Made by a program: the position numbers and the translations under genes
The notes under the pieces: generated by a model
The model's database searches: none
Told to the model about the DNA's origin: nothing
What the model saw: the letters and a program-made list of their open reading frames with translations, nothing else
Shown here: in pieces, positions 23,690-32,883 of the stretch
How the letters are laid out: each line of letters starts with the position of its first letter
Position numbering within the stretch: position 1 is the first letter of the stretch
From: Amycolatopsis dendrobii
Lineage (GTDB): Bacteria; Actinomycetota; Actinomycetes; Mycobacteriales; Pseudonocardiaceae
Length of the DNA: 64,000 nucleotides
Reading direction: 5' to 3'
Assembly: GCF_014145675.1 (NCBI RefSeq)
Contig: NZ_JACGZW010000009.1
Coordinates: 1 to 64,000, forward strand

Positions 23690-24223
23690 ATGGCGTTCAG
23701 CACCGCGAACATCCAGCGCGACTCTCAGACCAGACTGTCGCGGGCGACGAACCGGGCCGCGTTTCTCGCGGACGCTGAGGCCAGCGGATTCGTGCCCTCC
23801 GTCGCGGTGGAAGTCCGGTTCGAGCAGGCAGATGCCCGCGTGGCACAGCATCTCGCGATTGCCGAAGGCACCGAGATCACGGTGCGGGATCGGATCCTGC
23901 GAGCGGACGGGCAGGCTGTTCAGCTTTCGGTGTCCTGCCTCTCGCGTGAACTGACGCGCGGTACTGCGATCGAGGAAGTCGAGTCCGGCGGAACTTACGC
24001 GCGGCTCGAAGAAGCTGGTCATTCGCTCGGATCGTTCGTCGAGCACGTCGGCGCGCGGATGCCGACCCCGGAGGAGGCGGCGCTTCTGCAGCTCTCCGAA
24101 GGAACGCCCGTCCTGACGGTTACTCGGGTCGCGCACGGCGAGGACGGTTCTCCGTTGGAGGTCAATGACATGGTCCTCACCGCCGACCGCTATCAGCTGT
24201 CTTACACCTGGCCTGCGGACTGA
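23690..24223 (+). CDS. stand-alone UTRA domain protein (GntR/HutC effector domain without HTH)
   Basis: 177 aa that align over their whole length with the linker and UTRA ligand-binding domain of HutC-type GntR regulators (RLSRATNRAAFLADAEASGFVPSV, VRDRILRADGQAVQLSVSCLSRELTRGTAIEEV, YTWPAD). No N-terminal winged helix is present and none is encoded in any frame in the 82 bp upstream. It may be a degraded regulator or a free effector-binding protein. ATG at 23690 is the only good start. Convergent with the TetR gene at 24225, one base apart. Confidence 0.75.
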   Translation: MAFSTANIQRDSQTRLSRATNRAAFLADAEASGFVPSVAVEVRFEQADARVAQHLAIAEGTEITVRDRILRADGQAVQLSVSCLSRELTRGTAIEEVESGGTYARLEEAGHSLGSFVEHVGARMPTPEEAALLQLSEGTPVLTVTRVAHGEDGSPLEVNDMVLTADRYQLSYTWPAD

Positions 24224-24224
24224 G

Positions 24225-24848
24225 TCACAGCAGCGAAGACAGCCCCTCCCGCAGCATCCGATAAGCCGCCTCCGCCCGCGCAACCGCGTCCGGGTAAGTC
24301 TCATCCGCGCTTCGCCCACCGCGGATCTCCCGGGCATTGTGAAACCCCAAGATCCGCTGCGCCCCGAAGATCTGCGCAGCCGCCAACCGCGCGGTGAACT
24401 CGTCCGAAATCCCGCACGAAGCCCGCAGTTCCTCGACCAGTTGCTGTTCCTTCTCCAGCAGGTACGTGGCAAGCCGGGCCAGCAAAGCGGGCGTTGAGTA
24501 CAGCAGGGTGTGGCACGTGATCGCGTCCGGCGAGTCGTTCAGGCCGGTCAGCGGGTCGCGGGCGGCCAGGCGGTCCAGGAAGGACCGTTCCAGCGCGGAC
24601 AGGGCCGATGTCTCCGGCGGCCGGGCGCGGACGATTTCCGCGGGGCCGTTGTCGTCGGCGAATTGGTGGATGACCAGGTCTTCCTTGGTCGGGAAGTACG
24701 CGAACAGCGTCGGCTTCGAGATCTCGGCCTCGGCGGCGATGTCGGCTACTGACACCCCGTCGAAGCCGGATTCCCGAAACAGCCGCAGCGCCGCCGAGGC
24801 GATGGCTTCCCTCGTGCGGCGGCGTTTGAGCTCGCGCAGTCCTGACAC
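24225..24848 (-). CDS. TetR family transcriptional regulator next to helD
   Basis: 207 aa. Classic N-terminal HTH (RRRTREAIASAALRLFRESGFDGVSVADIAAEAEISKPTLFAYFPTKEDL spans about residues 9-58), with an uncharacterised all-helical ligand domain. Start is GTG at 24848. It is divergent from the HelD-type gene with 85 bp between starts. An inverted repeat there (24891-24914) is the likely operator, so it probably represses helD, itself, or both. Confidence 0.88.
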   Translation of the reverse strand: MSGLRELKRRRTREAIASAALRLFRESGFDGVSVADIAAEAEISKPTLFAYFPTKEDLVIHQFADDNGPAEIVRARPPETSALSALERSFLDRLAARDPLTGLNDSPDAITCHTLLYSTPALLARLATYLLEKEQQLVEELRASCGISDEFTARLAAAQIFGAQRILGFHNAREIRGGRSADETYPDAVARAEAAYRMLREGLSSLL

Positions 24849-24890
24849 GGGCGTCAGCCTAGCCGGAACCCGAACCCGGATAAAAACTTG

Positions 24891-24914
24891 ACTCGGTTGT
24901 ATATTTAACCTAGT
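24891..24914. promoter_or_regulatory. candidate operator between tetR and helD
   Basis: ACTCGGTT (24891-24898) and AACCTAGT (24907-24914) form an 8-bp inverted repeat with one mismatch and an AT-rich 8-bp spacer (GTATATTT). A TTGACT -35-like element (24888-24893) overlaps the left arm. Confidence 0.5.
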
Positions 24915-24933
24915 GAAGAACCAGGGGGCGGGA

Positions 24934-26988
24934 GTGGAACCAGAGATCCGGGCGGAGCGCGAGTATCTCCAGGCCTGTCACGCAGAGCTGGACCGCATGC
25001 GGGCAGAGATCAAGACCGCGATCGCGACGGGGATGGGCGAGGGCGACGCGATCGACGACAAGTACTTCAACCACGTGCTCAGGCAGTTTCGCATCGAGAT
25101 CGCCGAGGAGCTAGCGGATATCGACGAGGCGCCGCTCTTCTTCGGCCGCCTCGACTACCCGCCGGGCGAGGTCTACGAGGCCGCGCGCGGGTCGCATACT
25201 CGGTCGCCTGAGCATGACCTGGTTTACCTGGGGCGCAGAGGGATTCGTGACGACGACGGCGAACCTCTGGTGATCGATTGGCGGGCACCGCTCGCGAGGG
25301 CGTTTTACGAAGCCGATCACGAGCATCCGATGGGTGTGCGGGTCCGGCGGCGCTACGGGTTCGACCAGGCGGGAGTGCTCAGCGCGTACGAGGACGAACC
25401 GCTCGATCGGCCCGGTTCGTCGGCGAATCGGCTGCTCACCGCGGAAATCGAGCGGCCGCGGCAGGGGCCGATGCGGGACATCGTCGCGACGATCCAGCCG
25501 GATCAGATGCGGCTCGTTCGCGCGCCGGTCGATCGGACGATCTGCGTTCAGGGCGCACCGGGGACCGGCAAGACCGCGGTGGGGCTGCATCGGCTGGCGT
25601 ATCTGCTCTACACCGAGCGGACGCGGCTGCAGAAGGCCGGCGGGGTCGCGGTGATCGGGCCGAACCGGTCGTTTCTCGCCTACATCGCGGGGGTGCTTCC
25701 GGCGCTCGGCGAGGTCGCGGTTTCCCAAGCCACGATTGACGAATTGACCGGGGCGGGACGGCCGGCCGAGTGCGTCGACGATCCGCGGACGGCGCGCATC
25801 AAGGGGGACGTCCGGATGGCGGAGGTCGTCCGGAGACAACTGTGGGCGCGGATCCAGCCGGTCGACCGCACGATCGAGGTGAAGTACCAGCACCGGACCT
25901 GGCGGTTGTATCCCGAGGACATCGCCGAGGAACTCACGGAAATCCTCAGCCGCGGCGCGGATTACAGCGCCGGCCGCGAATTGCTGGCGCAGCGGCTCGC
26001 GCACCGGGTTCTGCGCGAGATGGAGCGGTCCGGCGGCACGAGCGCGACCCTGCATCAGCTTCGCCGCAATGCCGCGATCACCAAGGCGGTCCGGGACATG
26101 TGGCCTGCCGTCGAGCCTGCGCGGTTGGTCTACGACTTGCTTACTGACGAAGCACTTCTCGCCGAAGCGGCCGACGGGATTCTCACTGCTGAGGAACAGG
26201 AAGCGCTCATCCGTCCGCGACCGCGCAGTCGTAAGGCGATGACCTGGTCGACGCTCGATCTCGCGTTGCTGGACGAGGTCGCGGCGTTGATCGAGCGGCC
26301 CGCGAAGCTCGGGCACGTCGTGGTCGACGAGGCGCAAGACCTCAGCCCGATGCATCTGCGGGCGATCTCGCGCAGGTTGGCCGGTGCGTGCACGGTGCTC
26401 GGCGACGTCGCGCAGGCGACCAGTCCTTCCGCGGTCCGCGATTGGACGACCGTGCTGACTCACCTTGACCGGCCCGACGGGCGGATCGAAGAACTCACGC
26501 ACGGCTACCGCGTTCCGGCGGATGTTCTCGACTTCGCGGCTCGGCTGCTCCCGCACATCGCGCCGGAGCTGCGGAGTCCCACGTCGTTCCGGCATTCCGC
26601 GGATGCCCTGCACCTGACCGAAACGGGCGAGACGCTCGCCGCGGCGGTTGATGCTTGTGCGAAGGCGTTAGCGCAGGAAGGGTCGATCGGGCTGCTGGCT
26701 GCGGACGCGGAGATCCCCGAACTGAGCCGTGCCTTGGCCGAGCGCGGGCTGGACCACACGGTGCTGGGTACCGAGGGCACGGCCCGGATCACGGTGGCAC
26801 CGGTGAGTTTGGCGAAGGGGCTGGAGTACGACACGGTCTTGGTGGTCGAACCAGCGCGCATCGTGGCGGCGGAAGAGCGTGGGCTGCAACGGTTGTACGT
26901 CGCGCTCACCCGGGCGGTCAGCACCTTGCACGTAATCCACGCTGACCCGTTGCCGGAGCCGTTGCTGGCTCAGACCGCGGCGGTTTGA
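24934..26988 (+). CDS. helD: HelD-type RNA polymerase recycling ATPase (UvrD/Rep-like)
   Basis: 684 aa from the chosen start. The N-terminal helical arm (about 1-60) is of the kind that HelD proteins insert into RNA polymerase. It is followed by a 1A domain with Walker A GAPGTGKTAVGLH (about 206-218), Walker B VVVDEAQDLSPMHL and a C-terminal 2A domain with GLEYDTVLVVEP and RLYVALTRA motifs of superfamily 1 helicases. HelD uses ATP to release stalled or idle RNA polymerase; some actinobacterial versions (HelR) also protect it from rifamycins. GTG at 24934 has AGGGGG five bases upstream, better than GTG at 24913. It overlaps the convergent GT87 gene by 19 bp. Confidence 0.85.
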   Translation: MEPEIRAEREYLQACHAELDRMRAEIKTAIATGMGEGDAIDDKYFNHVLRQFRIEIAEELADIDEAPLFFGRLDYPPGEVYEAARGSHTRSPEHDLVYLGRRGIRDDDGEPLVIDWRAPLARAFYEADHEHPMGVRVRRRYGFDQAGVLSAYEDEPLDRPGSSANRLLTAEIERPRQGPMRDIVATIQPDQMRLVRAPVDRTICVQGAPGTGKTAVGLHRLAYLLYTERTRLQKAGGVAVIGPNRSFLAYIAGVLPALGEVAVSQATIDELTGAGRPAECVDDPRTARIKGDVRMAEVVRRQLWARIQPVDRTIEVKYQHRTWRLYPEDIAEELTEILSRGADYSAGRELLAQRLAHRVLREMERSGGTSATLHQLRRNAAITKAVRDMWPAVEPARLVYDLLTDEALLAEAADGILTAEEQEALIRPRPRSRKAMTWSTLDLALLDEVAALIERPAKLGHVVVDEAQDLSPMHLRAISRRLAGACTVLGDVAQATSPSAVRDWTTVLTHLDRPDGRIEELTHGYRVPADVLDFAARLLPHIAPELRSPTSFRHSADALHLTETGETLAAAVDACAKALAQEGSIGLLAADAEIPELSRALAERGLDHTVLGTEGTARITVAPVSLAKGLEYDTVLVVEPARIVAAEERGLQRLYVALTRAVSTLHVIHADPLPEPLLAQTAAV

Positions 26989-30504: not shown

Positions 30505-30508
<4 letters not shown>
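29108..30508 (+). CDS. amidase (amidase-signature family)
   Basis: 466 aa with the full amidase signature: catalytic Lys in PIKDL (about residue 78), GTPGGSSSGAG-type loop (here TPGGSSSGAGVAV, about 149-161) and the nucleophile region DGGGSIRIPAS with Ser-cisSer-Lys triad geometry. It hydrolyses a carboxamide; the substrate is unknown. AAAGGGG at 29094-29100 gives the best spacing to ATG at 29108 (GTG at 29105 is adjacent). It ends with a 4-bp convergent overlap with the UvrA-like gene. Confidence 0.9.

Positions 30509-32883
<2,375 letters not shown>

Follow-up and report, generated by a model that had tools for sequence, protein, structure and literature searches.

We found that the 64-kb window, that is, the whole stretch of 64,000 nucleotides of Amycolatopsis dendrobii DNA analysed here, contains two divergently transcribed genes, one encoding a TetR-family repressor (leftward) and the other a HelD-type RNA polymerase motor protein (rightward), which face each other across a candidate operator (Table 1). 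We propose with moderate confidence that the pair is an antibiotic-inducible cassette protecting RNA polymerase, most likely against tetramic-acid inhibitors of the streptolydigin/tirandamycin/nocamycin class. The initial annotation had already described a HelD-type gene divergent from a TetR regulator, which the open reading frames bear out, and had suggested a ligand-switched HelD guarding RNA polymerase, specifically a relative of HelR conferring rifamycin tolerance. The general part of this suggestion stands, since the TetR operator is conserved and orthologous pairs occur inside inhibitor-type clusters; the rifamycin/HelR part does not.

Table 1. Features of the TetR-HelD gene pair (positions in the window)
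Feature	Position	Strand	Basis
TetR-family repressor, 207 aa	24225-24848	-	ORF; TetR_N domain PF00440, E 2.1e-16
HelD-type RNA polymerase motor protein without PCh-loop, 691 aa from GTG 24913	24913-26988	+	
N-terminal helical arm, residues 8-67	24934-25113	+	AlphaFold2 helices 8-39 and 50-67
Walker A motif GAPGTGKT, residues 214-221	25552-25575	+	21-protein alignment
PCh-loop insertion place of HelR, residues 455-468; 12 residues here	26275-26316	+	
Candidate operator, 32-bp imperfect palindrome CTTGACTCGGTTGTATATTTAACCTAGTGAAG, 12/16 pairs	24887-24918	.	
8-bp inverted repeat ACTCGGTT-N8-AACCTAGT, 7/8 arm pairs, 8-bp AT-rich core	24891-24914	.	
Probable -10 element TATATT of the HelD gene, at the operator centre	24900-24905	+	Prediction from conserved TATANT

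The codon equivalent to that at 24913 is not a start codon in the relatives L046-L049, so that the HelD gene more likely starts at GTG 24934. In a 21-protein alignment, all positions of the Walker A motif were invariant except A215, as were D122-W123-R124 of the window protein. The N-terminal arm of HelD proteins enters the secondary channel; here its tip is acidic, GEGDA(I/V)xDK, and is kept in most orthologues, e.g. as GEGDA(V/I)xDKYFNH. An AlphaFold2 model built on 40 sequences (the window protein and those of 39 of the 80 fetched loci, with L103, L134 and L165 dropped) reached a pLDDT of 86.9 and a pTM of 0.85. Its closest PDB chain was Mycobacterium smegmatis HelD (8q3i_H; Z 32.8, rmsd 6.8, 610 residues aligned), and comparisons with UvrD and Bacillus subtilis HelD gave Z 31.4 over 378 residues and Z 22.7, respectively. 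The predicted HelD fold, the N-terminal arm and the DWR motif place the protein in the HelD superfamily.

The protein resembles M. smegmatis HelD, of class II, in structure, short N-terminal arm and DWRAP motif, but it is only 34% identical to the host's own M. smegmatis-type gene product and has no PCh-loop, the feature used to describe class II (PMC11464796). The PCh segment was 77-85 residues long in 11 of 11 HelR proteins, whereas it spanned 9-13 residues, and thus no loop, in all 41 members of the window clade that were measured (12 in the window protein). The loop is likewise missing from class I, to which B. subtilis HelD belongs, and from class III; however, the arm between conserved columns, 48 residues here and 45-48 in HelR, has 60 and 74 residues in two class I proteins, and the class III motif is DWRX[A/S]P rather than the DWRAP of the window protein.

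The closest described relatives of the window pair are NcmJ and NcmK in the nocamycin cluster of Saccharothrix syringae, in which an ATPase gene and a TetR gene also lie side by side. The cluster description (PMC5466765) lists the hydrolase NcmE (273 aa), the P450 NcmG, the exporter NcmH (543), the PadR protein NcmI (197), the 'AAA family ATPase' NcmJ (713), the TetR protein NcmK (213 aa), Orf4 (Ohr) and Orf5 (UbiE, 232 aa); there, NcmJ is counted among five regulators, and NcmH and NcmQ are suspected of a role in resistance. In the same paper, streptolydigin and tirandamycin are given as validated RNA polymerase inhibitors and nocamycin as a probable one (PMC5466765). We found that genome G155 carries, in this order, a hydrolase, an exporter (543), a PadR protein (209 at the start chosen), a HelD (713), a TetR (213), an Ohr-like protein and a 232-aa methyltransferase-like protein, the last two judged by eye. 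This order and these lengths suggest that G155 comes from S. syringae or a close relative, with NcmJ as its HelD orthologue. The window HelD and TetR are 66% and 59% identical, respectively, to the NcmJ-like and NcmK-like proteins of G155, where the two genes likewise diverge across a window-like site (7 mismatches, with 0 of 300 shuffles as good). The HelD and TetR of the window are thus orthologous to the G155 copies and have the operator in common with them, which makes NcmJ and NcmK their probable orthologues.

The two systems differ in their surroundings: NcmJ and NcmK belong to a PKS-NRPS cluster in which exporter and PadR genes are their neighbours, whereas a biosynthetic cluster in the 64-kb window was rejected, as queries for PKS, NRPS, exporter and hydrolase genes found none there (KS, NRPS and hydrolase gave no match at E<=1e-25). 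A TrdE-like hydrolase was also absent from the host genome at E<=1e-60. For these reasons, the window pair looks like an orphan resistance cassette.

The association of such HelDs with this kind of cluster extends beyond G155. An NcmE/TrdE-like hydrolase (E<=1e-60) was found in 8 of 390 genomes of the host's family, taken as Pseudonocardiaceae, seven of which also carry an orthologous HelD, 0.8-10.5 kb from the hydrolase gene; the hypergeometric probability of this co-occurrence is 4.4e-7 under the assumption of independent genomes, which is too optimistic because 4 of the 10 cluster-linked genomes come from one genus. Genome G201 is the exception: besides the hydrolase it shows PKS genes, and no HelD was seen over the 60 kb read. 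In another genus, which we take to be Streptomyces, the hydrolase was found in 3 of 392 genomes, twice in one of them; two TrdE/SlgC-type hydrolases have reportedly been named for streptolydigin. All three genomes encode a PCh-less HelD, 43-45% identical to that of the window, 2.0-5.4 kb from the hydrolase. Overall, a PCh-less HelD lies within 11 kb of the hydrolase in 10 of the 11 hydrolase-bearing genomes, and the PCh segment has 12 residues in 10 of 10 cluster-linked HelDs; the length in L092, a sequence joined across two frames with 4 stops, was not used. Genes in these genomes were called by our own script and products identified by similarity.

In two of the three genomes of the second genus, G714 and G854, a TetR gene related to that of the window (51-55% identity) and an exporter gene are divergently transcribed; in the third, the contig spans just 10.7 kb. 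The site between TetR and exporter has 7 and 6 mismatches to the operator consensus (shuffle minimum 10), and no other match of up to 7 mismatches was found over the 120 and 36 kb read. However, the 32-mer of the window itself had no match at either place (15 mismatches each, against a shuffle minimum of 13), and the operator link is therefore weaker in that genus. In addition, the cluster HelDs of this genus form their own branch inside the PCh-less clade (100/100), which calls for either two separate recruitments or an early one followed by loss. Among open-access titles and the beginnings of abstracts, we found none linking HelD to the streptolydigin/tirandamycin class.

The initial annotation described an 8-bp inverted repeat around an AT-rich core overlapping the promoter. 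Repeat and core are present, with imperfect arms, within a longer palindrome whose paired positions have a raw binomial chance of 3.8e-5, a value that holds for one centre only. This site was found by our own scripts; an inverted-repeat finder did not list it. As for overlap with the promoter, the hexamer TATANT is well conserved at the operator centre across 18 aligned sites, but a generic sigma-70 scan reported no promoter at the TetR-HelD intergenic site, so that the claim rests on the conserved hexamer. The operator pattern occurs once in the 9.69-Mb genome at <=3 mismatches, compared with 0 occurrences of a reversed control.

Because these sites had themselves supplied the 18-site consensus, a fair search across loci took as its query the 32-mer of the window alone, with 300 shuffles per locus. 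The sample was made up of 16 loci with the TetR gene from beyond the close genus clade, 14 from the host's family plus Nocardia brasiliensis and Nocardiopsis potens, with L099 and L091 taken as one genome and the truncated L055 left out of the counts. In 13 of these 16, the operator was present at the corresponding position and none of the 300 shuffles scored as well; L085 gave 1 of 300, whereas L090 and L091 lacked the site (5 and 6 of 300 shuffles as good). Among 11 loci without this TetR, ten had no site and one, L088, had a decayed site (1 of 300 shuffles). The presence of the site in 13 of 16 loci with the TetR and its near absence without it suggest that TetR and operator travel together.

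Orthologues of the window HelD are patchily distributed: with the host counted, they occur in 11 of the 80 genomes searched in the genus (E<=1e-100) and in 39 of the 390 searched in the family (E<=1e-120). Genus relatives carry copies that are 93-95% identical. The TetR gene is present at 20 of 29 orthologue loci, that of the window counted, and in six (L050-L054 and L093) a PadR gene, identified by Pfam at two loci and by similarity or by eye at the rest, takes its place; the PadR family includes the multidrug-binding LmrR. A different palindrome, ATATAGTCCAAGTGGACTATAT, was observed at the PadR locus L054. At L088 and L094, neither a TetR nor a PadR gene was found at that place. In L055 (genome G045), both genes are truncated, a HelD piece from about residue 315 abutting a TetR piece from residue 106, as after a deletion removing the promoter region and both gene starts.

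We read 24 orthologue neighbourhoods of about 20-80 kb each, including that of the window. A type I PKS cluster adjoins the gene in seven (G021a, G060, G023, G033, G136, G155 and G353), and these clusters have in common genes for a GH16-type hydrolase (75-98% identical to that of G060), an exporter, a PadR protein and a P450, with an NRPS also present in four. Neither this kind of cluster nor a type II PKS cluster was found in 14 of the 24, the window among these. In the wider PCh-less clade, which comprises at least 80 loci in many genera with best segments 46-67% identical, none of the 80 loci listed contained the queried type I cluster genes within the shorter stretches read (mostly 12 kb), and divergent regulators were rare, TetR_N being found in 3 of the 89 divergent ORFs scanned, out of 98 divergent ORFs.

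Homology suggested no ligand for the TetR protein: similarity to its PDB relatives is mostly confined to the DNA-binding part, and none comes with a named ligand. A role in anti-phage defence was rejected, PADLOC matches being weak and of GajB/UvrD type (best 1.5e-8), as was a phage or plasmid origin of the HelD gene, whose closest plasmid relative is 47% identical and whose phage matches are partial. Elsewhere in the window, positions 23690-24223 (rightward) encode a 177-aa protein with a UTRA ligand-binding domain, in which a GntR DNA-binding domain was not matched, and positions 30505-32883 (leftward) encode a UvrA-like protein of 792 aa (683.9 bits against a UvrA cut-off of 729.8). Another UvrA-like protein, Ecm16, reportedly confers self-resistance against a DNA-binding drug.

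If the protein were a HelR-type rifamycin tolerance factor, as the initial annotation had it, rifamycin would release the TetR protein and HelD would eject the drug from RNA polymerase. HelR (NF041254, NF041258) indeed belongs to the same superfamily and has the same overall fold, and the window HelD is probably, like HelR, inducible and acting on RNA polymerase. One RpoB, with a canonical-looking rifampicin region, was found in the host, so that such protection would be useful. However, HelR membership was rejected on bit scores, PCh-loop, clade placement and the rifamycin-associated element (RAE). The NCBIfam scores of the window protein are far below the cut-offs (HelR_2, 319.7 against 1100; HelD_MYCSM, 292.2 against 1051; HelR, 289.6 against 750; HelD_BACSU, 152.8 against 419). 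The phylogenetic check called for by the initial annotation placed it outside the HelR clade in both trees: in a tree of 58 proteins, the window clade (97/96) is apart from a group of HelR and the host's four other HelDs (99/97), and a second tree, with the longest branches removed, three rows added and 9 rows of the first omitted, gave the same separation (100/100), although both trees carry long branches and the program warned that L028_ownC5 may be misplaced in the second. As for mechanism, rifampicin is ejected by the acidic tip of the PCh-loop, according to PMC10719064, and a class I HelD without this loop guards B. subtilis from rifampicin via a long, acidic-tipped N-terminal arm, according to PMC12802891. 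The acidic arm tip of the window protein, also PCh-less, would fit the class I example, but its arm is short, like that of HelR and unlike that of class I, so that one known rifampicin-displacing element is gone and the other is short.

Rifamycin response genes are present elsewhere in the host genome. In agreement with the initial annotation, no RAE was found at the pair, where the best match in 24700-24940 has 8 mismatches and a TetR operator occurs instead. A genome search with the RAE pattern at <=3 mismatches gave 8 matches in the genome against 15 for the reversed control, per strand, and because the control was commoner, we used only three sites with 0-1 mismatch (C16:291-309, C1:667800-667818 and C57:332653-332671). 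One of these precedes a rifampin monooxygenase gene (865 bits, cut-off 800) and one a gene for the rifamycin phosphotransferase Rph (1557 bits, cut-off 999), while the C16 site lies near a contig start in an orientation that puts its target gene off the contig. The genome encodes five HelD paralogues, that of the window included, in line with the up to five per actinobacterial genome reported (PMC8655204). One of the others exceeds the HelR_2 and HelD_MYCSM cut-offs (1308 and 1296 bits) and lies at the end of contig C2 (L026:4857-7115); it may adjoin the C16 site, both being at contig ends. The PCh segments of the four others are 82, 84, 41 and 13 residues long. Since the protein with 13 residues (C5; L028:5876-7999) groups with HelR in the tree, repeated loss or gain of the loop is probable. 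Given a separate HelR_2-type gene, RAE-like sites serving other rifamycin genes, and a window protein outside the HelR clade without the loop, we regard the rifamycin reading as very improbable.

Two further explanations are less remote, though we consider both unlikely. The protein could be a general transcription-clearing or DNA-repair factor, regulated by TetR by chance and in response to a stress metabolite rather than an antibiotic. A gene for the XPB DNA repair helicase is nearby in 53 of the 80 wider-clade loci listed (L106-L178), upstream on the same strand in 52 of the 53, which hints at transcription-linked repair and a possible ancestral role in genome maintenance, and most TetR-linked copies were read in ordinary-looking surroundings, with gene starts judged by eye (12 of 16 neighbourhoods, that of the window included, had neither kind of cluster sought). 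Nevertheless, none of the 31 orthologue and cousin loci had an XPB gene in the neighbouring stretches read, and the dedicated TetR or PadR neighbours, the inhibitor-type clusters and the patchy distribution within the genus fit a drug response better. Less probable still, in our estimation, is a cassette directed against DNA-binding aromatic (type II) polyketides that stall RNA polymerase, of which the tetramic-acid link would be one case among several. In three genera, the TetR-HelD pair lies near a common type II PKS cluster (G358, G152 and G200; L230, L231 and L255), the genes of which are 66-86% identical between the three genomes, except for one regulator at 42%, with a glycosyltransferase seen in two. 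These three copies are a point against the tetramic-acid reading, as is the listing of NcmJ as a regulator with other genes suspected of resistance. The window, however, lacks that type II cluster, and the link to tetramic-acid clusters extends beyond the family, to a second genus; the queried type II genes were absent from the stretches read (mostly 12 kb) in 73 of the 80 wider-clade loci.

For a cassette directed against tetramic-acid inhibitors, the following sequence of events may be proposed. The TetR protein would sit on the 32-bp operator, masking the HelD gene's -10 region and, probably, the TetR promoter as well, until released by a small molecule, presumably the antibiotic. The HelD protein would then open the clamp and push its N-terminal arm into the secondary channel, against the trigger loop and bridge helix, and may thereby clear drug-poisoned RNA polymerase. 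Streptolydigin binds RNA polymerase at the bridge helix and trigger loop, and a PCh-less HelD could thus clear a drug of this kind with its arm and clamp-opening domain. Repression, ligand, RNA polymerase binding and drug release are all predictions for the window pair. A point against this reading is that modified subunits of the polymerase may also protect streptolydigin producers.

More broadly, and with slightly less than even confidence, we suggest that PCh-less HelDs may constitute a second branch of motor-driven RNA polymerase protection, in which the arm would free the enzyme from streptolydigin-class drugs at the bridge helix/trigger loop, serving self-resistance in nocamycin-, tirandamycin- and streptolydigin-type clusters and having spread among non-producers, such as the host of the window pair, as orphan cassettes switched by TetR or PadR. 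HelR sets the precedent that a helicase-like motor can eject rifamycins; if our reading is correct, the same scaffold without the PCh-loop would protect RNA polymerase at another site and from another class of drugs, and actinobacterial HelD paralogues may be shields specific to individual drugs. It would also suggest a function for NcmJ, so far described as an AAA family ATPase among regulators. The combination of a PCh-less HelD and the TetR operator would then be a marker with which to mine genomes for clusters of RNA polymerase inhibitors, and the same marker could spot resistance among non-producers.
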